From contig JAAFHZ010000002.1 of NCBI GenBank assembly GCA_013297675.1, forward strand, positions 1 to 64,000: 64,000 nucleotides of DNA. Reading direction: 5' to 3'. The position numbers and the translations under genes are program-made. The notes under the pieces are model-generated. The model worked only from the letters and a program-made list of their open reading frames with translations, had not been told where the DNA came from and made no database searches. How positions within the stretch are numbered: position 1 is the first letter of the stretch; the number at the start of each line of letters is the position of its first letter. This DNA comes from Synechococcales cyanobacterium bin59.metabat.ball.084. Its GTDB lineage: Bacteria; Cyanobacteriota; Cyanobacteriia; Cyanobacteriales; Chamaesiphonaceae. Below, one piece after another: positions 25,169 to 48,719 of the stretch.

Positions 25169-26224
25169 CTATGGTTTATCAACCAATAGGGGATCTAAAA
25201 GGCGGTTAATTAGTCGTAACTGCTCAGCAGTGCCCATACAGATTAAGTTATCGCCACCAGTAATCTCTGTTTCGCCAGTTGGCCCCACGATCAGTTCGCC
25301 CCCATGGCGACGGATTGCCAACACTAGTGCCCCAGATTGCGATCGCAGTCGGGCTTCGCGCAGTGATAAACCGGCTACCGGACAAATATTTTGGTCAATT
25401 AAAAATTCTTCCATGTAAAACGCGCCGCTACTGCTGGTCATAATGCCATCGACAAAATCTAAGACTTGGGGGCGGAGAGCGGCAGCAGCCATCCGTTTGG
25501 CTCCGGTAATATAGGGAGAAATTACAGTGTTGGCTCCAGCCCGTTGCAGTTTTTGCACTGCTTCTTCGGTGCTGGCGCGGGCGATCGCCCTGATCAAAGG
25601 ATTCAAACTCTTGGCAGAAAGAATAATATATAAATTTTCGGCATCAGAAGGCAGAGCCGTTACCAGACAATTAGCCCGTTCTACTCCCAGCTCAATCAGG
25701 GTTTCATCTAAAGTAGCATCAGCTTGAATGGCCGTGTAGCCTAATTTTTGGGCAATTTCGATCTGCTCAGCGCTAGAATCGATCACCACAAAGGGGGCTT
25801 TTTCGGCAGCAAATTCATCGGCGATTTGTCGCCCAATGCGGCCAAAGCCACAAATTAGATAGTGTTGATTCAGAGATTTCACGAGTTTCCGGCGCAGACG
25901 CAGTTTACGCTCTTCTACAAAATAGCCGCCCAGCAGGGCATCAGTAAAGGTGTTGGCCGTATAGCCAATAGTCAAGACTCCTGAAGTAATTAGAGTCATG
26001 GTAAAAATTCGCCCTCGATCGCCCAAGGGGTGAGTTTCACCAAAGCCCACGGTCGAAAGAGTGATCATGGTCATATAGGCGGCATCCAGCCATTTCCACC
26101 CCTCTACAAAGTGATACCAGGCAGTGCCGCTGAGTAACAAAAAACTGATGGCCAGAGCAGCACGGCGCAGCTCTAGCCGAATTTCTTGAGATTTTTGCTC
26201 GGTTACAGAGTCCAATCTTTCCAC
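25169..26224 (-). CDS. Potassium channel protein with TrkA/RCK domains
   Basis: A 351-residue two-span channel with cytoplasmic regulatory domains. The first 100 residues hold two membrane helices around a pore loop with the selectivity filter TVGFGE (in TLSTVGFGETHP). A Rossmann-type TrkA-N domain follows (YLICGFGRIGRQIADEFA, about 117-240), then a TrkA-C domain to the end (EFLIDQNICPVAGLSL...GDNLICMGTAEQL). It should pass K+ across the inner membrane under control of a nucleotide ligand. The start is GTG at 26224. The filter GFG rather than GYG occurs in other bacterial K+ channels. No operon partner is evident. Confidence 0.92.
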   Translation of the reverse strand: MERLDSVTEQKSQEIRLELRRAALAISFLLLSGTAWYHFVEGWKWLDAAYMTMITLSTVGFGETHPLGDRGRIFTMTLITSGVLTIGYTANTFTDALLGGYFVEERKLRLRRKLVKSLNQHYLICGFGRIGRQIADEFAAEKAPFVVIDSSAEQIEIAQKLGYTAIQADATLDETLIELGVERANCLVTALPSDAENLYIILSAKSLNPLIRAIARASTEEAVQKLQRAGANTVISPYITGAKRMAAAALRPQVLDFVDGIMTSSSGAFYMEEFLIDQNICPVAGLSLREARLRSQSGALVLAIRRHGGELIVGPTGETEITGGDNLICMGTAEQLRLINRLLDPLLVDKP

Positions 26225-26346
26225 TGGAGCTATTTACGAATTCGGTCTATCAAAGATCTCAAACTGCTGCCACATCTGTTTTACGGTTTGGGCGGAGTCG
26301 TCTAAATACAAAAACACCCCAGGAAACGGCGGCGGTACCAGGATGT

Positions 26347-27033
26347 TTAGTTCTCCCCCAGCAATGCCACAAATTTTTGGCTGATGAGTTCCTTGAAAGT
26401 GTCGTAATCAGTAATCCAGTTATCAATAAAAGCTGCCATAGTAGGAATGCGCTTGGCAGCAGGCACGTCTTTTACGTCGTAGTTAAAGTTGCCAGAAAAT
26501 AGCAAAATCGGCAGCGGCTGTTGATCGGGCTGTTGAATACTAGCGGAGTTAATCGAAAGATTTAATTGGCCGCGCTCTAGGGTATAGAGCAAATTGAGGG
26601 CAGCGCGGACATTTTCTTTGCCATAAGTCTGCCACTCACCAGGAGCCAGCAGCTTGCTGCAAATATATTTATCGGCGGCATTGTTGTCGGTAGGGTAAGG
26701 TACATAGCTGCGAAAGTTGATGCCTACGGCTTGATAGTTTCCGGCTTTCATGATTTCCACATATCGACGAGCCACATCACCAATCACCACATTATCGGGT
26801 TCTTTGTCGCCGATCGCTTCCAAAAACATTAGTCGATCGGGCTGAGCTGCGATGCTACAGCCATTCTCGAAGGCTAACTGACTAAGTTGCTCACTGGTAA
26901 CGGGCTGGCGGCTAAGCGGCCAATCTTCGGGAATGATGCCGCTATATTTAAGTAAATCTTCTCGCAGCATGGCTGGAGACTGCTGAGCGGCAATAACGAT
27001 CGAGACTTCTTGGGTAATGAATGTAGAACTCAT
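26347..27033 (-). CDS. Conserved hypothetical protein
   Basis: A 228-residue soluble protein with no signal peptide and no domain I recognise. It opens with two strands (TFITQEVSIVIAAQQSPAM), has a central NVVIGDVARRYVEIMKAGNYQAVGINFRSYV segment and a C-terminal IPTMAAFIDNWITDYDTFKELISQKFVALL helix pair. The pattern of a cluster of short beta strands with a closing helix resembles cyanobacterial hypothetical proteins of similar length, but no function can be assigned. It lies between smtB and the channel gene on the same strand, with 76 and 122 bases of separation, so shared transcription is uncertain. Confidence 0.7.
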   Translation of the reverse strand: MSSTFITQEVSIVIAAQQSPAMLREDLLKYSGIIPEDWPLSRQPVTSEQLSQLAFENGCSIAAQPDRLMFLEAIGDKEPDNVVIGDVARRYVEIMKAGNYQAVGINFRSYVPYPTDNNAADKYICSKLLAPGEWQTYGKENVRAALNLLYTLERGQLNLSINSASIQQPDQQPLPILLFSGNFNYDVKDVPAAKRIPTMAAFIDNWITDYDTFKELISQKFVALLGEN

Positions 27034-27109
27034 GGATTTGCAGTATTAAGATGCTGACTGAGAAACAGAATAAGGTTTTTCGGTCTCTCTGGCAATTTTA
27101 AGGGCAATT

Positions 27110-27457
27110 TTAACGGCAATTGCGCTCTTGCAAATGCTCAGATACTAGTTGATAAATTTCAATGATGTGTCGATCGGCTAGCTTGTAAAAAACATGCCTG
27201 CCGCGTTTTTCGTGGGTGACAATCCGGTTCGATCGCAGGTGGCGCATTTGCTGTGAAACTGCGGCCTCGGTCATGCCGATCGCCGCCGCGATTTCATGGA
27301 CGCAGACTTCTTGGGCGGCCACTAGTTCTAATATGCGCAACCGGTTAGCATCGGCCAACAGGGCAAAAAACTCCGCCATCAACTGAGCTTGATCATGAGC
27401 ATGATTTGGGCTGTTGGGTTCGGAGTTTTTCTGTGTTGTCAATGGAGACTTTGGCAT
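27110..27457 (-). CDS. smtB: SmtB-type zinc-responsive ArsR repressor
   Basis: A 115-residue winged-helix repressor of the ArsR/SmtB family. Cys52 in EVCVHEIA matches Cys61 of Synechococcus SmtB, and the DNA-reading helix is GMTEAAVSQQMRHL. The alpha-5 zinc site is complete: Asp95, His97, His108 and Glu111, with the same spacing (2, 11, 3) as Asp104, His106, His117 and Glu120 of SmtB. N-terminal His19 and His21 could serve the alpha-3N site. Zinc binding should release it from DNA. Its gene begins three bases after smtA on the same strand, so it is probably the second gene of an autoregulated smtA-smtB operon. In Synechococcus the two genes are divergent. Confidence 0.92.
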   Translation of the reverse strand: MPKSPLTTQKNSEPNSPNHAHDQAQLMAEFFALLADANRLRILELVAAQEVCVHEIAAAIGMTEAAVSQQMRHLRSNRIVTHEKRGRHVFYKLADRHIIEIYQLVSEHLQERNCR

Positions 27458-27460
27458 TAA

Positions 27461-27628
27461 TTAGCTACCACAGCCACAGCCGTTTTGGGTGCAGCCTTTT
27501 TTGTCGGTGTGGCCAGAGGCACAGCCTTCGCTACAGTAGTTTTTGCCATCTTTCATGACGGCATCGGTCAGGGAGACGATGCAGAGGCAAGGTTCGCAGG
27601 CGCATTTCATGGAGGTAACGGTGGTCAT
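27461..27628 (-). CDS. smtA: Bacterial metallothionein SmtA
   Basis: A 55-residue protein easily missed because of its length. It has nine Cys (positions 9, 11, 14, 16, 32, 36, 46, 51, 53) and His40. The opening KCACEPCLC and the central YCSEGCASGH match Synechococcus SmtA (KCACEPCLC, YCSEACADGH) almost exactly. These residues build the four-zinc cluster and the treble-clef-like zinc finger of SmtA. The second cluster His of SmtA (His49) has no equivalent here; the sequence reads GCTQNGCGC. The protein sequesters zinc and other soft metals in the cytoplasm. It is the first gene of the operon, three bases before smtB. Confidence 0.95.
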   Translation of the reverse strand: MTTVTSMKCACEPCLCIVSLTDAVMKDGKNYCSEGCASGHTDKKGCTQNGCGCGS

Positions 27629-27652
27629 AGGACAAGTCCTGAATTCTTAAGG

Positions 27653-27680
27653 TTGAGTATATTTTAACATCTGATTGAGT
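27653..27680. promoter_or_regulatory. Possible SmtB operator/promoter region upstream of smtA
   Basis: An AT-rich stretch just upstream of smtA has two TTGAGT direct repeats at 27653-27658 and 27675-27680, 22 bases apart (two helical turns). A canonical 12-2-12 inverted repeat of SmtB sites is not obvious. Position, not motif, is the main support. Confidence 0.3.
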
Positions 27681-27790
27681 GATTGGATATTTTTATTTTC
27701 AACTTCGCTGCTATGGCTCGGAGTTGTTGATGAGACTTGTTTGGCAGAACAGGGAATACTAATTCTAGAGTTCAGCAAGCCCCTGTAATT

Positions 27791-28735
27791 ATGACCATCG
27801 CCCCTCCCGCCAAGCCCTACGCTAAAAACGCTAATCCTTTACAACAGCTCCAATCAGAACTCAGTCAGGTAGTCATTGGCAAAGAAAAGCCGATCGAACT
27901 CGTCCTCATTGCTTTATTAGCTGGCGGCCACGTTTTACTAGAAGACGTTCCAGGGGTAGGTAAAACCGTCTTAGCTAAATCCTTAGCCAAGCTCATCGAT
28001 GGTCGCTACCAGCGGATTCAATGTACCCCCGATCTATTGCCTACAGACATCACTGGCACCAACATTTGGAACCCCGGCAACCGAGAATTTGAGTTTCTGG
28101 CGGGTCCAATTTTTACGAACATTTTATTAGCCGATGAAGTAAACCGCGCTACTCCCCGCACCCAGTCAGCATTATTAGAAGTAATGGCCGAGCAGCAAGC
28201 AACGATCTATGGTCGCACCCACCCCATTGCCCGCCCTTTCTTTGTCGTAGCTACCCAAAACCCGGTGGAATATCAAGGGACTTTTCCGTTACCGGAAGCC
28301 CAAATGGATCGGTTTATGATTTGCTTAAGTCTGGGCTACCCTAACGCCGCCGAAGAAGTGCTGATGCTGCAAGGTATTAACCAACGGGAGTCTGGCAGAA
28401 GCATTGCACCTTGTTTAACCGCACACCGCTTAGCTGAACTTTCTGCCCAAGCCCGATCGATCAGGGTCGAAACGGTCTTACAGCAATATATTGTCAACCT
28501 AGTTCAAGCTACCCGTCGTCACCCCGATGTATTACTTGGAGTTAGCCCCCGTGGTTCGATCGCTCTCCATCAAGCGGTACAAGCTCGCGCCCTGATTCAG
28601 GGCCGAGACTACGCTACCCCAGATGATGTAAAGTTCTTGGCTCCCTATGTTTTGACCCACCGCATTGTGACCAACAGCAGCAAGCGCAGCAGCCAGATTG
28701 TAGATGCTGTTTTGCACGAAACTGCTGTGCCATAG
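27791..28735 (+). CDS. MoxR family AAA+ ATPase
   Basis: About 314 residues with the MoxR layout: IGKEKPIELVLIALLAGGHVLLEDVPGVGKT (Walker A GVGKT), Walker B LLADEVNRATPRTQSALLEVM, sensor VVATQNPVEYQGTFPLPEAQMDRF, and the C-terminal lid with GVSPRGSIALHQAVQARAL. I start it at ATG 27791; a TTG at 27737 would add 18 unremarkable residues. MoxR ATPases act as chaperones that load metal cofactors or activate partner complexes, usually with DUF58 and VWA-domain proteins. None of those partners is encoded nearby, so it is an orphan here. It runs away from smtA, which is transcribed in the opposite direction. Confidence 0.92.
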   Translation: MTIAPPAKPYAKNANPLQQLQSELSQVVIGKEKPIELVLIALLAGGHVLLEDVPGVGKTVLAKSLAKLIDGRYQRIQCTPDLLPTDITGTNIWNPGNREFEFLAGPIFTNILLADEVNRATPRTQSALLEVMAEQQATIYGRTHPIARPFFVVATQNPVEYQGTFPLPEAQMDRFMICLSLGYPNAAEEVLMLQGINQRESGRSIAPCLTAHRLAELSAQARSIRVETVLQQYIVNLVQATRRHPDVLLGVSPRGSIALHQAVQARALIQGRDYATPDDVKFLAPYVLTHRIVTNSSKRSSQIVDAVLHETAVP

Positions 28736-28799
28736 GGATTAGACATCTCCACACAGTTATCCAGAAGGATAAGCAGCAATTCCAGATTCGGAAAAACCC

Positions 28800-28876
28800 G
28801 GATGTGGGGGTCTTCCCCCCACGCCCCCGCAGTGGGGGACGAAACGCCTCCCCCACACCCCCTGCGTGAGGGTCGA
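28800..28876. repeat. GC-rich palindromic intergenic repeat
   Basis: A C/G-run-rich block between moxR and the acyltransferase gene. GTGGGGG pairs with CCCCCAC around a short loop at about 28803-28821, and TGGGGG pairs with TCCCCCA at about 28833-28856. Stacked palindromes of this kind are scattered through many filamentous cyanobacterial genomes. Its composition stands out sharply from the flanks. Confidence 0.6.
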
Positions 28877-28932
28877 TCTTGCTGAGTTGCCGCGTTGTCT
28901 TTATCAATCAAATTAAGTTAGGTCAACACCCC

Positions 28933-42243: not shown

Positions 42244-42353
42244 AGTCTTCCCACCAGTCTATTCTGACCAAAGCATGATTTTCTTGTCAGGTCGATGAGA
42301 GCAAATTTGATTACAGACTGCAACTAGGTGTACTACTATTTTTTGGAGATTTG

Positions 42354-43544
42354 ATGATGAATAACCATGTTTTATTGGCCTATGATTTTGGGGTGTTGGT
42401 CAGTGACTTATTTGCTCCGCCCAAGCCGCCGACTGACCCTGCACCAAAAGCGCTTCAGGAGCTGTGGTTGGTGGCGATGAATGGCAATTTGTATAAGTTA
42501 GTCATCAGTATTGGTATTTTAATCGCCGTCTTTGCCGTAGGATTTTGGTGTACAAAGTTTTATCTAGCGATCGAAGATGGTGGTTTGAGACCAGCTCTGA
42601 GAGAAACGGTGTTCCCACTAATTTTGGTGGTGCTGTTTGCTAACGGTGGCGGCAATATGCGCAATGTAACTTTGGGCGCTAGGGATATAATGAATAATGT
42701 CAATAGTTCGGTAAACAGTGTGATTGATGCAGATGTGAGCATTCGATCAGCTACCCAAGCCCTAAGCAATAATATTCTTTCTCAGAGTATTATCGGTGCT
42801 ATGTATCGACAATGTATGGCTTCGGCTGATCTCAATAAAATAAAGAGCTGCGCTGATGCGACCAGGATTCAGATTAATGCTTATACGGGTGGTGCTGCTC
42901 CGGCGCTGCAAGTGAGCAGTAATGAGAAGTACCAGGAGCAGTTGATAGAGTTTGCACAAAAAATGAAGGCGAGAAATGAAGCTCGGTATAAGCAGGTTGT
43001 CGATACGGCAAACGGAAGTAATCGACCAGACAACATAAATAATCCTATTTCAGCCAACCCATCAGAGAAAAAAGCAGATTCTAACATCAGTGTGCTAGAC
43101 TCCTCATATTTCGAGAATGACCAAGCTTTAGAAGGCATTACTAAGACAATCATGAGCTTCAGGATGGCTTTTATTTATATTGTGGAAATAATGATGATCA
43201 TCACTGCTTTGGTTGGTCCGATATTTTTAGGGCTTTCATTATTTCCGGTGGGTACTAAGCCGTTAATCGCTTGGGGAGTTTCATTTTTGTCTTTAGGGTT
43301 TTGTAAAATTTGTTATACGTTAATATCGGGGCTGTCCTCGATCGCCTTCGTCTATGCAGGCCCTGACAACATAGATGCTGCGACTGTAGCGGTTGTGTTA
43401 GGAATACTGTCACCAGTATTATCCTTTAGTATTGCTTCGGGTTCAGGAATTAATGCTTTAAATAATATTTCTCAATCCGCACAAAATGCTGGTATTAAAA
43501 ATGGTCTTGGTTACTACACCCCTAATAATTTTAATGATAAATGA
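42354..43544 (+). CDS. Polytopic membrane protein, VirB6/TrbL-like (tentative)
   Basis: A 396-residue protein, started at ATG 42354 because GGAG lies six bases upstream; a TTG at 42351 is too close to it. Two membrane segments (about residues 46-67 and 85-99) are followed by a large polar loop of about 165 residues with Cys154 and Cys166, then three more segments (272-298, 303-335, 342-362). The run of GPIFLGLSLFP followed by a conserved small-residue helix is typical of VirB6/TrbL inner-membrane channel subunits of type IV secretion. The last 105 residues are repeated as fragments at 44470, 46413 and 47637 and in part at 48788. It is the only full-length copy. Confidence 0.6.
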   Translation: MMNNHVLLAYDFGVLVSDLFAPPKPPTDPAPKALQELWLVAMNGNLYKLVISIGILIAVFAVGFWCTKFYLAIEDGGLRPALRETVFPLILVVLFANGGGNMRNVTLGARDIMNNVNSSVNSVIDADVSIRSATQALSNNILSQSIIGAMYRQCMASADLNKIKSCADATRIQINAYTGGAAPALQVSSNEKYQEQLIEFAQKMKARNEARYKQVVDTANGSNRPDNINNPISANPSEKKADSNISVLDSSYFENDQALEGITKTIMSFRMAFIYIVEIMMIITALVGPIFLGLSLFPVGTKPLIAWGVSFLSLGFCKICYTLISGLSSIAFVYAGPDNIDAATVAVVLGILSPVLSFSIASGSGINALNNISQSAQNAGIKNGLGYYTPNNFNDK

Positions 43545-44422
43545 TAATGCTTGTGATAAAATTAGGGTGCATGTGACTTTCTATAAAGGAAATCATATGC
43601 CTTGATTTTTCATTAATATTAACAAATAGATCTAATCTTTATTTTCAGAAAGATCATATCCACTCCAAACACGTAGCTTTTCAAAAACTTTTACCTTTAT
43701 AAATCTGATTCAAAATTATGCTGGAAACCAATTCACTTGTAATAGGACTAATGGTATTACTCTGTTCCTCTAACATGGCAGAAGCAGCAACTATCAACAC
43801 AAATTTGAATAAGAGTTCTGAAAAGATTTTATTAGCTCAATTTGGCACAACCCCCACTGATAATCAAAGACAACAGGAGACGTTTAATAGGGGTTTAGAC
43901 CACCATCAAAACTCTTTGCGTATCCAGAAACAACGGCAACAGCAAGCAGAATATAATCGGCAGCAAAACGAACTTGACAGACAGAGAAGAATTTTGGAAG
44001 CTCAAGAGGCGGCACTTAACTCAATACCAGATCTGGCAAGAAAAAAAGACTATTTAGCTCTTGGCAGAGCATGGCGCATCTTAGAAGTATGGGATAGAAG
44101 CTTAGACGCTGCTAATAAAGCCATTGCAGCTTATCCAGACATTGTGGGTGGATACCTTTTGCGAGCATCTTTAAGAGAAAGACTTAATGATATATCGGGT
44201 GCTATAGCTGATTACGATCAAGCAATCGAAATTGAGCCAGATCGTCATATTTATTATGAGTCCCGTGGCAGGTTGAAAAAGAGTTTTGACCGAAACGGGG
44301 CAATTCAAGATTTTAGAATGGCTATGAAAATAGTAAAAGTAGATAATCGATTTAATCTAATTAGAGATTCTGAGTTGAGAATTCTCGCCAAAGAGCTGAG
44401 ATCATTGGGGGCAACAGAATAA
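43222..44422. repeat. Cassette repeat unit I, copy 1 (virB6-like 3' end + spacer + TPR gene)
   Basis: About 1.2 kb that recurs at 46413-47614. The virB6-like 3' end, the entire noncoding spacer (starting TGATAATGCTTGTGATAAAAT after the stop) and the TPR gene (MLETNSLVIGL start) all match closely. A paralogous TPR gene alone would not explain the matching spacer. Confidence 0.85.
43718..44422 (+). CDS. Exported TPR protein, array member 1
   Basis: A 234-residue member of a family of five paralogues. It has a signal peptide (VIGLMVLLCSSNMAEA, cut after AEA) with a Cys that does not fit a standard lipobox. A Gln/Arg/Asn-rich stretch (residues 45-95) may be coiled coil. The C-terminal 130 residues contain three TPR-like helix pairs: [64 protein letters not shown] and [30 protein letters not shown] proteins bind other proteins; the partner is unknown. 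It directly follows the VirB6-like gene and is nearly identical to array member 4. Confidence 0.82.
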   Translation: MLETNSLVIGLMVLLCSSNMAEAATINTNLNKSSEKILLAQFGTTPTDNQRQQETFNRGLDHHQNSLRIQKQRQQQAEYNRQQNELDRQRRILEAQEAALNSIPDLARKKDYLALGRAWRILEVWDRSLDAANKAIAAYPDIVGGYLLRASLRERLNDISGAIADYDQAIEIEPDRHIYYESRGRLKKSFDRNGAIQDFRMAMKIVKVDNRFNLIRDSELRILAKELRSLGATE

Positions 44423-44469
44423 TCGATTAAGTGTTATGTTGATTCCGACGCTTCCGAGGATTCCGCTTT

Positions 44470-44768
44470 TTCTGGTCAGTACGAAACCTCTGATTGCCTG
44501 TGGTGTTTAATTTTTGTCTTTAGGGTTTTATAAGATTTGTTATACACTGATATCGGGTTTGTTCTCGATCGCCTTTGTATATGCAGGTCCAGACAACATA
44601 GATGCTTCAACTGTTGCAGTAGTTCTAGGATTGCTTTCACCAGTACTAGCTTTTAGCATTGCTTCAAGTTCAGGAATAAACGCCCTAAACAGTGCTATCG
44701 GGCCTGCGCAAGTTGGCGGTATTAATTTTGGACTGGGATATTCCTCACCAAATAATAATCAAAAGTAA
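44470..44768 (+). pseudogene. virB6-like 3' fragment A
   Basis: Homology to the last 100 codons of the VirB6-like gene starts near the codon for VGTKPL and runs to the stop. It has an in-frame TAA shortly after the start (GV*FLSLG), so only the downstream part (from about 44514) is open. It follows array member 1 by about 50 bases. The sequence is diverged: SSGINALNSAIGPAQVGG instead of SGINALNNISQSAQNAG. Confidence 0.8.
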
Positions 44769-44775
44769 TGATGTA

Positions 44776-44867
44776 TAGCAGTTCCGGCTCGGATAAAGTG
44801 GATTTATGCACCTAAAAATCTCTCTGAGCTAAAGATCACTTTTGCTTTATTCAACCCGGAACTGTTA
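44776..44867. mobile_element. MITE-like element with TA target duplication
   Basis: An 88-base element (44778-44865) begins GCAGTTCCGG and ends CCGGAACTGT, flanked on both sides by TA. The terminal inverted repeat extends about 20 bases with mismatches: CAGTTCCGG.T.G.ATAAAG on both arms. Small size, terminal repeats, TA flanks and no coding capacity fit a miniature element of the IS630/mariner type. The corresponding spacers after the full virB6-like gene and fragment B lack it. Confidence 0.6.
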
Positions 44868-44933
44868 CAATCAACTAATCATCCTGATTTGAACACAATT
44901 AGAAGGCCAACCGTAATATTCTTCAAATAAGCC

Positions 44934-45596
44934 ATGAAAGTAAAAATAAGCTCATTTGTTTGTGGACTAGTAGTATTAACCTCCTCCGTAGCACAAGCAA
45001 CGTCTATCAAATTAAAATCTGAGAGAGCAACAAATAATCTTTATGCTCAAAGAGGACACCATCAGCGCGAACAAGATTATATTGGATATCGTCGCTGGGA
45101 AGAAGCAGTCAGACAGCAGGCAGAATATAATCGACAACAAAATGAGCTAGCCAGACTGGAAAGAATTAGACAAGCTAGAGAATCAGCTCTCAACTCAATA
45201 CCAGAACTAGAAAACAAAAAAGACTATTTAGCTCTTGGTCAAGCGTGGCGCACTTTAGAAGAATGGGACAAAAGTTTAGATGCTGCCAATAAAGCCATTG
45301 CAGCTTATCCAAACGTTGTGGGTGGATACACTTTGCGAGCATCTTTGAGAAAAAGACTCAATGATATATTAGGTACTTTAGCTGATTATGATCGAGCAAT
45401 TGAAATTGAGCCAAATTTCCATGGCTATTACCAGCTACGCGGAGAACTAAAAAAAAGCTTTGATCGAAATGGAGCGATTCAAGATTTCCGCATGGCTATG
45501 AAGGTAATAAGAACTGACAATCGTTATAATCTCATTAGAGACAGAAGGTTAAATGAATTTGCTAAAGAGCTTCAGTCTCTTGGTGCAACAGAATAA
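44934..45596 (+). CDS. Exported TPR protein, array member 2
   Basis: A 220-residue paralogue with a signal peptide (ISSFVCGLVVLTSSVAQA, cut after AQA). After a short variable segment (res 22-55, with HHQREQDYIGYRRWEEAV) it has the family's [54 protein letters not shown] stretch and three TPR-like repeats up to ELQSLGATE. The Tyr-rich, charged N-terminal part differs from members 1 and 4, while the C-terminal 140 residues are almost the same in all members. Fragment A and a small mobile element separate it from member 1. Its neighbour member 3 begins 75 bases downstream with no virB6-like fragment between. Confidence 0.82.
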   Translation: MKVKISSFVCGLVVLTSSVAQATSIKLKSERATNNLYAQRGHHQREQDYIGYRRWEEAVRQQAEYNRQQNELARLERIRQARESALNSIPELENKKDYLALGQAWRTLEEWDKSLDAANKAIAAYPNVVGGYTLRASLRKRLNDILGTLADYDRAIEIEPNFHGYYQLRGELKKSFDRNGAIQDFRMAMKVIRTDNRYNLIRDRRLNEFAKELQSLGATE

Positions 45597-45671
45597 TCAG
45601 TAGTACTACAAAAATTATCTAGCCTAAATTTAAGAGTCGTAAAACGCAATCATAATATTTTTCAATAAACC

Positions 45672-46385
45672 ATGAAAGTAATAATTAGCTCATTCGCTTT
45701 TGGACTAGTGGTATTTACTTCCTCAACAACACAAGCAACGCCCATCAGATTAAAATCTGATGTAAATTTGTACAACAGCTTTAGAGAATTTTTACTAGTT
45801 CAATTTGGCACAACCCCCACATCTAATCAAAGACAACAAGAGGCGTTCAACAGAGATTCAAACAATTATCAAGGTTGGTTGTATTACCAGCAACAACAGA
45901 GGCAGCAAGCCGAATATAATCGTCAGCAGAACGAGCTAGCCAGACTGGAAAGAATTAGACAAGCTAGGGAGTCAGCTCTCAACTCAATACCAGAACTAGA
46001 AAGTAAAAAAGACTATTTAGCTCTTGGTCAAGCGTGGCGCACTTTAGAAGAATGGGACAGAAGTTTAAATGCTGCCAATAAAGCCATTGCAGCTTATCCA
46101 AACGTTGTAGGTGGATACACTCTTAGAGCATCCCTAAGAGCAAGACTTAATGATGTGACAGGTGCGATCACTGACTATAATCAAGCCATTGCAATTAAGC
46201 CATATTATTATGGATACTATCAACTTCGAGGCGAACTGAAAAAGAGCTTAGATCAAAATGGAGCAATTCAAGATTTTAGGACGGCTATGAAAGTTTTAAG
46301 AGTTGATAATCGTTATAACCTAATCAGAGACTCAGAGTTAAAAATTCTTGCCAAAGAACTACAATCCTTAGGAGCTACAGAGTAG
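45672..46385 (+). CDS. Exported TPR protein, array member 3
   Basis: A 237-residue paralogue. The signal peptide (ISSFAFGLVVFTSSTTQA) resembles that of member 2, but the following segment (VQFGTTPTSNQRQQEAFNRDSNN, about 42-64) resembles members 1 and 4. It thus looks like a mosaic of two family types. The C-terminal part has the family repeats: [64 protein letters not shown] and [28 protein letters not shown]. No virB6-like fragment precedes it. As with the others, the mature protein should lie in the periplasm or cell exterior; its ligand is unknown. Confidence 0.82.
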   Translation: MKVIISSFAFGLVVFTSSTTQATPIRLKSDVNLYNSFREFLLVQFGTTPTSNQRQQEAFNRDSNNYQGWLYYQQQQRQQAEYNRQQNELARLERIRQARESALNSIPELESKKDYLALGQAWRTLEEWDRSLNAANKAIAAYPNVVGGYTLRASLRARLNDVTGAITDYNQAIAIKPYYYGYYQLRGELKKSLDQNGAIQDFRTAMKVLRVDNRYNLIRDSELKILAKELQSLGATE

Positions 46386-46412
46386 TAGATTAAATATTTG
46401 ATTGATTTGATG

Positions 46413-46732
46413 TCTTAGGGCTTTCACTGTTTTCAGTGGGTACTAAACCGTTGATTGCTTGGGAAAGTTCATTTTTGTCTTTAGATTTTTGTAAGATTTG
46501 TTATACGTTGATATCGGGTTTGTCCTCGATCGCCTTCGTCTATGCAGGCCCCGATAACATAGATGCTGCGACTGTAGCAGTTGTGTTAGGAGTACTGTCA
46601 CCAGTATTATCCTTTAGCATTGCTTCGGGTTCAGGAATTAATGCTTTAAATAATATTTCTCAATCCGCACAAAATGCTGGTATTAAAAATGGTCTTGGTT
46701 ACTACACCCCTAATAATTTCAATGATAAATGA
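46413..46732 (+). pseudogene. virB6-like 3' fragment B
   Basis: The fragment begins near the codons for GLSLF and runs to the stop codon with the same ending as the full gene (GYYTPNNFNDK). Its last 85 residues differ from the full-length protein by about one residue, showing recent duplication or gene conversion. An ORF without an upstream stop is present from GTG 46436, but there is no N-terminal two thirds of the protein and no clear start signal. Confidence 0.82.
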
Positions 46733-46909
46733 TAATGCTTGTGATAAAATCAAGTAAAGGGTGCATGTGATTTTTTTTACAGAAAGTCACATGTCTTGAT
46801 TTTTCATTAAAATCAACAAATAGATCCGATCTTTATTTTCAGAAAGTCATATGCACTCCAAACACATAACTTTTTAAAACTTTTACCTTTGTAAATTTAA
46901 TTCAAAATT

Positions 46910-47614
46910 ATGCTAGAAACCAATTCACTTGTAATAGGACTAATAGTATTACTCTGTTCCTCTAATATGGCAGAAGCAGCAACTATCAACACAAATTTGA
47001 ATAAGGGTTCTGAAAAGATTTTATTAGCTCAATTTGGCACAACGCCCACTGATAATCAAAGACAACAGGAGACGTTTAATAGGGGTTTAGGCCACCATCA
47101 AAATTCTTTGCGTATCCAGAAACAACAGCAACAGCGAGCAGAATATAATCGGCTGCAAAATGAACTCGCCAGACTGGAAAGAATCAGGCAAGCTAAAGAG
47201 TCAGCCCTTAACTCAATACCAGAACTAGAGCAAAAAAAAGACTATTTAGCTCTTGGCCAAGCATGGCGTACTTTAGAAGAATGGGATAAAAGTTTAGATG
47301 CTGCCAATAAAGCCATAGCAGCTTATCCAAATGTTGTGGGCGGTTACACTTTACGAGCATCTTTGAGAAAAAGATTCAATGATATATTAGGTGCAATCTC
47401 TGATTATGATCAAGCAATCGCAATTGAGCCAAATTTTCATGGGTATTACCGGCTTCGCGGTAAACTAAAAAAGAGTTTTGACCGAAATGGTGCAATTCAA
47501 GATTTTAGGATGGCTATGAAAGTGATAAGAATTGATAATCGCTTTAATCTTATTAGAGAATCTGAACTAAAAATTTTCGCCCAGGAATTGAGATCTTTAG
47601 ACGCAACAGAATAG
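46910..47614 (+). CDS. Exported TPR protein, array member 4
   Basis: A 234-residue near-copy of member 1, with the same signal peptide (VIGLIVLLCSSNMAEA) and the same QFGTTPTDNQRQQETFNRGL segment. In its middle it diverges: member 1 reads NELDRQRRILEAQEAALNSIPDLARKKDY, while this one has the standard family stretch [29 protein letters not shown]. It seems that one of the two has undergone conversion with another member. Three TPR-like repeats follow. It ends ELRSLDATE instead of the usual SLGATE. Confidence 0.82.
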   Translation: MLETNSLVIGLIVLLCSSNMAEAATINTNLNKGSEKILLAQFGTTPTDNQRQQETFNRGLGHHQNSLRIQKQQQQRAEYNRLQNELARLERIRQAKESALNSIPELEQKKDYLALGQAWRTLEEWDKSLDAANKAIAAYPNVVGGYTLRASLRKRFNDILGAISDYDQAIAIEPNFHGYYRLRGKLKKSFDRNGAIQDFRMAMKVIRIDNRFNLIRESELKIFAQELRSLDATE

Positions 47615-47636
47615 CTAATTCAAAGTTTAGTTAATC

Positions 47637-47956
47637 CAATATCTTTGGGGCTTTCTCTATTTTTGCTGGGTATTAAACCTCTAATTGCTTAGGATGTTTC
47701 ATTTTTATCTTTAGGGTTTTGTAAGATTTGTTATATGCTGATATCGGGTTTGTCCTCGATCGCCTTCGTATACGCAGGTCCTGACAACATAGATGCTTCC
47801 ACTGTGGCTGTGGTATTAGGAATACTATCGCCGGTACTAGCTTTTAGTATTGCCGCTAATTCAGGTATAAATGCTTTGAACAGTGTTTCTCAATCTGCCC
47901 AGGCAGGTGGAATAGGAACTGGATTAATTCATTATGGCTCTAGGAACGGCCTATGA
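47637..47956 (+). pseudogene. virB6-like 3' fragment C
   Basis: Homology begins near the codons for PIFLGLSLF and runs to the end. The Trp codon of LIAWGVSF is a TAG stop here (LIA*DVSF), so only 47735-47956 could be read. The last 20 residues differ from other copies (SAQAGGIGTGLIHYGSRNGL). It is diverged from the intact gene and is not a recent copy. Confidence 0.8.
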
Positions 47957-48074
47957 AATTATTCACTTACTAAACGAAGAAGATAGGTTTTATGTAAAAT
48001 GGAGTAACTGATAGTTAGAAATTAAATATGGCATTTCCAAAGAAACAGAAATAACTCATTCATAGGTAATAGTA

Positions 48075-48719
48075 ATGTTTAAAGCTACTCACAATAATCT
48101 TTCATTGTTTTTCGGGTTATCAGTATATATGCTATTAGCCCCAAGCATTTCAATGGCAACTACTAAACTTTATCAGCAGTCAAAAGGAATTTTTTATGCC
48201 CAGTCATATCATGATCTTTGGTCGGAACTCAGAGAATTTAATCAGCGGCAACGGGAGCGGGAAAAGGAGCTTGCTAGACTGGAAAGAATTAGGCAGGCTA
48301 AAGAGTCAGCCATTAACTCAATACCAGAACTAGAAAGCAAAAAAGACTATTTAGCTCTTGGTCAAGCATGGCGCACATTAGAAGAATGGGACAAAAGTTT
48401 AGATGCTGCCAATAAAGCCATTGCAGCTTATCCAAACGTTGTAGGTGGATACACTTTACGAGCATCTTTGAGAAAAAGACTCAATGATATATCAGGTACT
48501 TTAGCTGATTATGATCGAGCAATTGAAATTGAGCCAAATTTTCATGGCTATTATGAGATTCGTGGTGTTTTGAAAAAAAGTTTTGACCGAAACGGGGCAA
48601 TTCAAGATTTTAGAATGGCTATGAAAATAGTAAGGGTTGATAATCGTTATAATCTGATTAGAGATTCAGAGTTAAAAAACCTTGCCAAAGAACTCCAATC
48701 TTTAGGAGCTACAGAGTAG
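48075..48719 (+). CDS. Exported TPR protein, array member 5
   Basis: A 214-residue paralogue and the last one in the array. Its signal peptide is the most diverged ([20 protein letters not shown]), and the spacer between signal and repeats is shortened ([44 protein letters not shown]). The three TPR-like repeats and the ELQSLGATE ending match the other members. It is followed within 70 bases by fragment D of the virB6-like gene and then by the truncated murD, so the array is cut off here. Confidence 0.82.

Follow-up and report, generated by a model that had tools for sequence, protein, structure and literature searches.

The repressor SmtB, together with its operator, is a textbook metal switch and biosensor part. 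In Synechococcus PCC 7942, smtA and smtB are reported to be divergent and about 100 bp apart (PMC8790569), and the core of the metallothionein SmtA is given as Zn4Cys9His2 (PMC10119931). The bmtA-bxmR pair of Oscillatoria brevis is described as an operon (PMC8790569), with BxmR said to repress both bxmR itself and bmtA (PMC10141476), and AzuR, an alpha-5 repressor of the SmtB type, is described as controlling NmtA of Anabaena PCC 7120 via a 12-2-12 repeat (PMC8790569). Here, we compare with these systems a co-directional smtA-smtB pair found in a stretch of 64,000 nucleotides (positions 1–64000 of a contig from a cyanobacterial genome of 4.64 Mb; hereafter the window). On balance, we lean slightly toward the hypothesis that this pair is a zinc-inducible, self-repressing operon in which the repressor and its operator have both diverged. 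Searches of open-licence papers turned up no description of operator core and recognition helix having changed together in this genus.

The comparison draws on a search for the metallothionein family PF02069 in 386 genomes of the phylum, which found it in 101; 106 loci, the window included, were examined for SmtB-type neighbors (called by profile at E<=1e-6) within flanks of about 1.5–3 kb, less at contig ends, beyond which a more distant smtB would escape. Across the sampled cyanobacteria, there is very little variation in either the SmtB helix or the operator core. The core of the smt regulon operator, TGAA-N6-TTCA (part of a 12-2-12 repeat), occurs with at least 7 of its 8 bases within 160 bases upstream of smtA at 33 of the 35 loci that have an SmtB-type neighbor; the window and one other locus (L100) lack it, and at the homologous place in the window 4/8 core bases are found. 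The helix reads SAVSHQ in 32 of the 34 readable SmtB-type proteins encoded beside smtA (the protein of a further locus, L036, is unreadable), and the exceptions are the window, with AAVSQQ, and L100; that is, the two loci without the canonical core are the two without the canonical helix. Indeed, among the 30 best matches of an order-wide SmtB search (388 genomes), two belong to this genus and the other 28/28 carry SAVSHQ. The sister species (G395) has the same AAVSQQ helix as the window, and the core CAAT-N6-ATCA is common to both species. The CzrA residues that align with the changed Ser and His presumably contact DNA, a point for which a literature search gave no confirmation.

A position weight matrix (PWM) built from 66 full-core sites, smtB-linked or not (marine family f26 left out), places the altered site far from the others: each scored with its own family left out, the 66 sites reach 8.8 to 40.0 (median 32.4), whereas the operator homologue scores 2.9 in the window and 3.1 in the sister species. 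Operators of the sister genus score 23.6 to 31.0, apart from one smtA copy without smtB (L162) that has no site. A score of 2.9 is reached by 3/127,942 window positions and 13/2000 promoter base shuffles, and the degenerate site is, as judged by sequence, the homologous place of the smt operator. The initial annotation had foreseen SmtB binding upstream of smtA; an operator homologue does stand at the expected place, but its canonical core is lost. Between the two species, CCAAT and TCAATCAGATGTTA are unchanged and the three bases between them differ, resembling half-sites around a spacer. Because helix and operator core have both departed from a near-invariant cyanobacterial pair, a changed recognition code is probable, by which the diverged SmtB helix and the diverged core would recognize each other.

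Operator recognition is nonetheless the weak step of the proposed mechanism, where a new code in both partners competes with lost control and with half-site binding, and several observations count against a new code. The change in operator and helix amounts to one event in one genus, seen in two genomes, and the SmtB-type neighbor at L100 belongs to another ArsR subfamily and is only loosely comparable. The inverted repeat is not significant, with 6/12 pairs in both species, a value reached by 2475/3000 column shuffles. Within a 70-base promoter block that is 83% identical between the window and the sister species (12 differences), 4/24 positions are changed in the site and 8/46 in the rest of the promoter, which is no difference in rate. 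Part of the site's likeness is also that of the core promoter, TGTTAnnAT (putatively extended -10-like), and not of the operator.

The strongest alternative, which we regard as unlikely, is that SmtB no longer governs this promoter. In that case the operator would have decayed, smtA-smtB would be constitutive or otherwise controlled, and other targets or some residual function would account for the retention of SmtB. The loss of the canonical core and of any significant palindrome speaks for such decay, as do searches of the genome, in which the altered site has no other copy at up to 3 mismatches. The strict canonical 24-mer has no match in the window's own genome either, which says little because that pattern would also miss some sister-genus sites; a looser canonical pattern recovers the smtA site in 7/7 of the relatives that have a canonical one (G386, G387, G390, G392, G394, G312, and G197) and gives only one match each in the window's own genome (G000) and G395, at the background rate. 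Set against lost control is the strong purifying selection under which smtB is kept: between the window species and its sister species, SmtB is 95% identical (dS 0.42, dN 0.023, dN/dS 0.054), and none of the six amino-acid changes (positions 5, 8, 10, 19, 21, and 112) lies inside the DNA-binding domain. Moreover, smtA and smtB still abut in both species, and operator decay alone leaves unexplained a helix that changed and was then fixed.

It is more doubtful still that this is an ordinary smtAB operon, in which the half-site left in the degenerate operator suffices for SmtB binding and the changes in the helix are without effect. The right half of the site, ATCAGATGTTA, is one base apart from the usual TTCAGATGTTA, and the alpha-5 sensor is intact, both consistent with residual binding; free replacement of helix residues is nonetheless hard to square with a motif that is otherwise near-invariant. 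For Zur-type control in place of SmtB, marine Synechococcus WH8102 offers a precedent in its bmtA, described as a Zur-activated metallothionein gene (PMC9337993), yet such control is highly improbable here, since the smtA promoter has no Zur-like box (up to 3 mismatches) and smtB is retained beside smtA.

A more specific form of the changed-code hypothesis, which we offer tentatively and hold to be less probable than the operon itself, is that SmtB and its operator co-evolved to a non-canonical code that insulates smtAB from the SmtB/operator pair of a P1B ATPase, which is canonical in the sister species. There, a second SmtB-type repressor (L165, around 1613–1636) has the canonical helix, adjoins the canonical operator ATATCTGAAAGTATATTCAGATGT, and faces a divergent open reading frame whose heavy-metal-binding motif is of the kind usual in P1B ATPases (the ATPase name comes from reading the sequence). 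A search of the window's genome found no second SmtB at E<=0.01, and PF01022 matches three further ArsR-like loci there, on contigs other than the window's. In the sister genus, repressors of the L156 type and of the L166/L167 type occur side by side while their sites stay canonical, so the presence of two repressors is not enough to compel a new code. If a changed code is indeed present, this natural pair with both partners altered would be a ready-made orthogonal switch and would make it possible to test directly how residues of the helix are matched to bases of the operator.

The arrangement of the genes was correctly given by the initial annotation, smtB following smtA after three bases on the same strand, with the coordinates 27110–27628 exact to the base. 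The whole unit is conserved in the sister species, where the junction is TAATG, a stop/start overlap that differs from the window's by a 4-base indel. Promoter and terminator inspection found no promoter-like minus-strand site within smtA from which smtB could be read, nor anything terminator-like in the junction, which together with the layout suggests a single smtA-smtB transcript. Across the window's family the two genes mostly abut, by the 3-nt gap of the window, the overlap of G395, or TAG-ATG with no gap (G386, G387, and G392), with about 40 nt between them in G390 and G394; translational coupling of smtA and smtB is therefore likely.

In the mechanism that we propose, a single promoter ahead of smtA would drive both genes, and metal-free SmtB dimers lying over that promoter would keep the operon low. 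Zinc (or cadmium) would induce it, zinc at the alpha-5 sites releasing SmtB from DNA, such that the metal buffer SmtA and the repressor SmtB would rise together, the near-overlap of the frames coupling SmtB translation to that of SmtA. Extra SmtB would then re-repress the operon once SmtA had lowered free metal. That the repressor is induced with its target, in negative feedback, had been proposed from the outset and is the natural reading of the layout; zinc-inducible feedback is, however, something we infer and is not evident, because the operator core is lost and the SmtB helix changed.

The repressor itself has the winged-HTH profile of ArsR/SmtB metalloregulators (HTH_5, E=2.9e-10; NCBIfam ArsR/SmtB metalloregulator, E=2.1e-24), and its nearest solved structure is Synechococcus SmtB (1r1t, E=5e-29). 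All four alpha-5 zinc ligands are intact, as the initial annotation held (D95, H97, H108, and E111), and the last helix fits the motif of alpha-5 zinc sensors (SmtB/CzrA/AzuR), given as DxHx10Hx2E (PMC8790569). In the N-terminal tail, both His19 and His21 differ between the two species, which makes a role as conserved metal ligands unlikely for them.

The 55-residue metallothionein likewise matches its family far beyond chance (PF02069, Metallothio_Pro; E=2e-24, with 85.9 bits where 33 is the cut-off, covering profile positions 1–51 of 51), and the protein is identical in the sister species (dN 0, dS 0.20). It has Cys at positions 9, 11, 14, 16, 32, 36, 46, 51, and 53, and His40 as its sole His. 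In alignment with its nearest solved structure, Synechococcus SmtA (1jjd, E=6e-13), the His of GCGHTGC is replaced and the segment reads GCTQNGC; the Cys9His2 cluster of the 7942 SmtA type, which is not obligatory for the PF02069 family, is therefore absent. The loss of the second cluster His, pointed out beforehand, is real but not confined to this locus: by a simple count, 18 other loci of the 106 lack it (one of the 18 is truncated), and a solved Pseudomonas metallothionein with a Cys9His cluster is reported to bind 3 Zn but 4 Cd (PMC7387436). By analogy, a smaller complement of zinc ions than in 7942 SmtA is probable for this protein with its one His.

The co-directional layout recurs at other loci. 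Of the 106 examined, 10 from four families, the window among them, have smtB on the same strand no more than 300 nt downstream, and 23 from eleven families have it divergent at up to 300 nt; one is convergent, one divergent but further away, and 71 have no smtB in reach. Among 27 named metallothionein loci, which partly overlap this sample, 5 have a co-directional smtB within 300 nt. With 10/106 such loci and the published bmtA-bxmR operon, we rejected the pair as a new kind of system, and its departure from 7942, stressed by the initial annotation, is not exceptional; genes and layout are already known, and the layout itself adds little new. Within the window's own family, 8/11 genomes have smtA, at 9 places, and smtB is directly downstream at 7/9 of these (G393 and the second G394 copy have no smtB in the stretch examined), making the tight smtA-smtB operon characteristic of the family. 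A tree of 54 SmtBs, from which L036 (frameshifted smtB), L100, one L167 match (another ArsR subfamily), and exact duplicates were excluded, gives the window pair a stem of great length, at 3.33 changes per column, and implies at least 6 switches between divergent and co-directional layouts that are not forced by well-supported forks; both the position of the pair and the number of switches are uncertain. Separately, at L036 (G286), smtB beside smtA is split over two frames and the operator score is the lowest of the 66 canonical sites, for which joint decay of repressor and operator, or a sequencing error, is possible.

Table 1. Features of the smtA-smtB locus, in window coordinates.
Feature	Position	Strand	Basis or score
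Possible third cistron, 228 aa, 76 nt downstream of smtB, no Pfam match	26347..27033	(-)	Adjacent also in G395
smtB, ArsR/SmtB repressor, 115 aa; recognition helix TEAAVSQQMR = residues 63-72	27110..27457	(-)	Profile and structure matches
Intergenic gap, 3 nt (TAA-TTA-ATG)	27458..27460	(-)	Sequence
smtA, bacterial metallothionein, 55 aa; 9 Cys and His40, without second cluster His	27461..27628	(-)	PF02069 match; identical protein in G395
Putative smtA ribosome-binding site, AGGA	27637..27640	(-)	Read from sequence
Putative extended -10, TAAAAT with TG upstream, directly after operator homologue	27661..27666	(-)	Sequence
Operator homologue, degenerate, AATATCCAATCACTCAATCAGATGTTAAAA; core CAAT-N6-ATCA (canonical TGAA-N6-TTCA)	27662..27691	(-)	PWM score 2.9

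Where the window has its putative -10 (table 1), relatives hold TAAGAT or TAGGAT. Upstream of smtA, the window has a MoxR-type ATPase gene and the sister species has other neighbors; only about 70 nt of promoter is shared, which places a rearrangement breakpoint just upstream of the promoter (window 27692–27800). No riboswitch or other RNA family was found in 26200–28900. Homologues of the 228-aa gene downstream occur at other places in the sister genus, with paralogues elsewhere in the window's own genome; the structure model of its product is confident (pLDDT 86.6), and its AdoMetDC/prozyme match (E=2e-5) was set aside as unreliable at TM 0.36 and rmsd 18, leaving no reliable match in the PDB. 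Elsewhere in the window, 43718–48719 (+) is a tandem array of five related 214–237-aa proteins that, by eye, look secreted and TPR-like; between its members stand incomplete copies of the 3' portion of a gene for a 397-aa membrane protein that lies upstream (42351–43544), and these copies form direct repeats of 300 nt, 73–93% alike. Zur-box-like matches number 16 in the window against 4.4 expected, and the tandem array explains part of this excess.

Taken against the described systems, the locus resembles smtA/smtB of Synechococcus PCC 7942 in pairing a BmtA-type metallothionein with an alpha-5 SmtB repressor and in the expected promoter-proximal operator, and differs in that its genes are co-directional and abutting, its metallothionein has one His, and its operator core and recognition helix are changed. 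With bmtA-bxmR of Oscillatoria brevis it shares the pairing of a metallothionein with an SmtB-type repressor in an operon (here a predicted one), whereas, compared with BxmR, the window's SmtB has no N-terminal Cys and reads CVH where CVC, which we take to be part of an alpha-3N site, would stand. AzuR and NmtA of Anabaena PCC 7120 are likewise an alpha-5 repressor and a metallothionein, although their genes are unlinked. Other cyanobacterial co-directional loci (for example L047, L070, L077, L007, L014, and L015) likewise have smtA then smtB on the same strand within 300 nt; the nine other co-directional loci among the 106 differ from the window in their gaps of 35–247 nt and in their canonical operator and helix.
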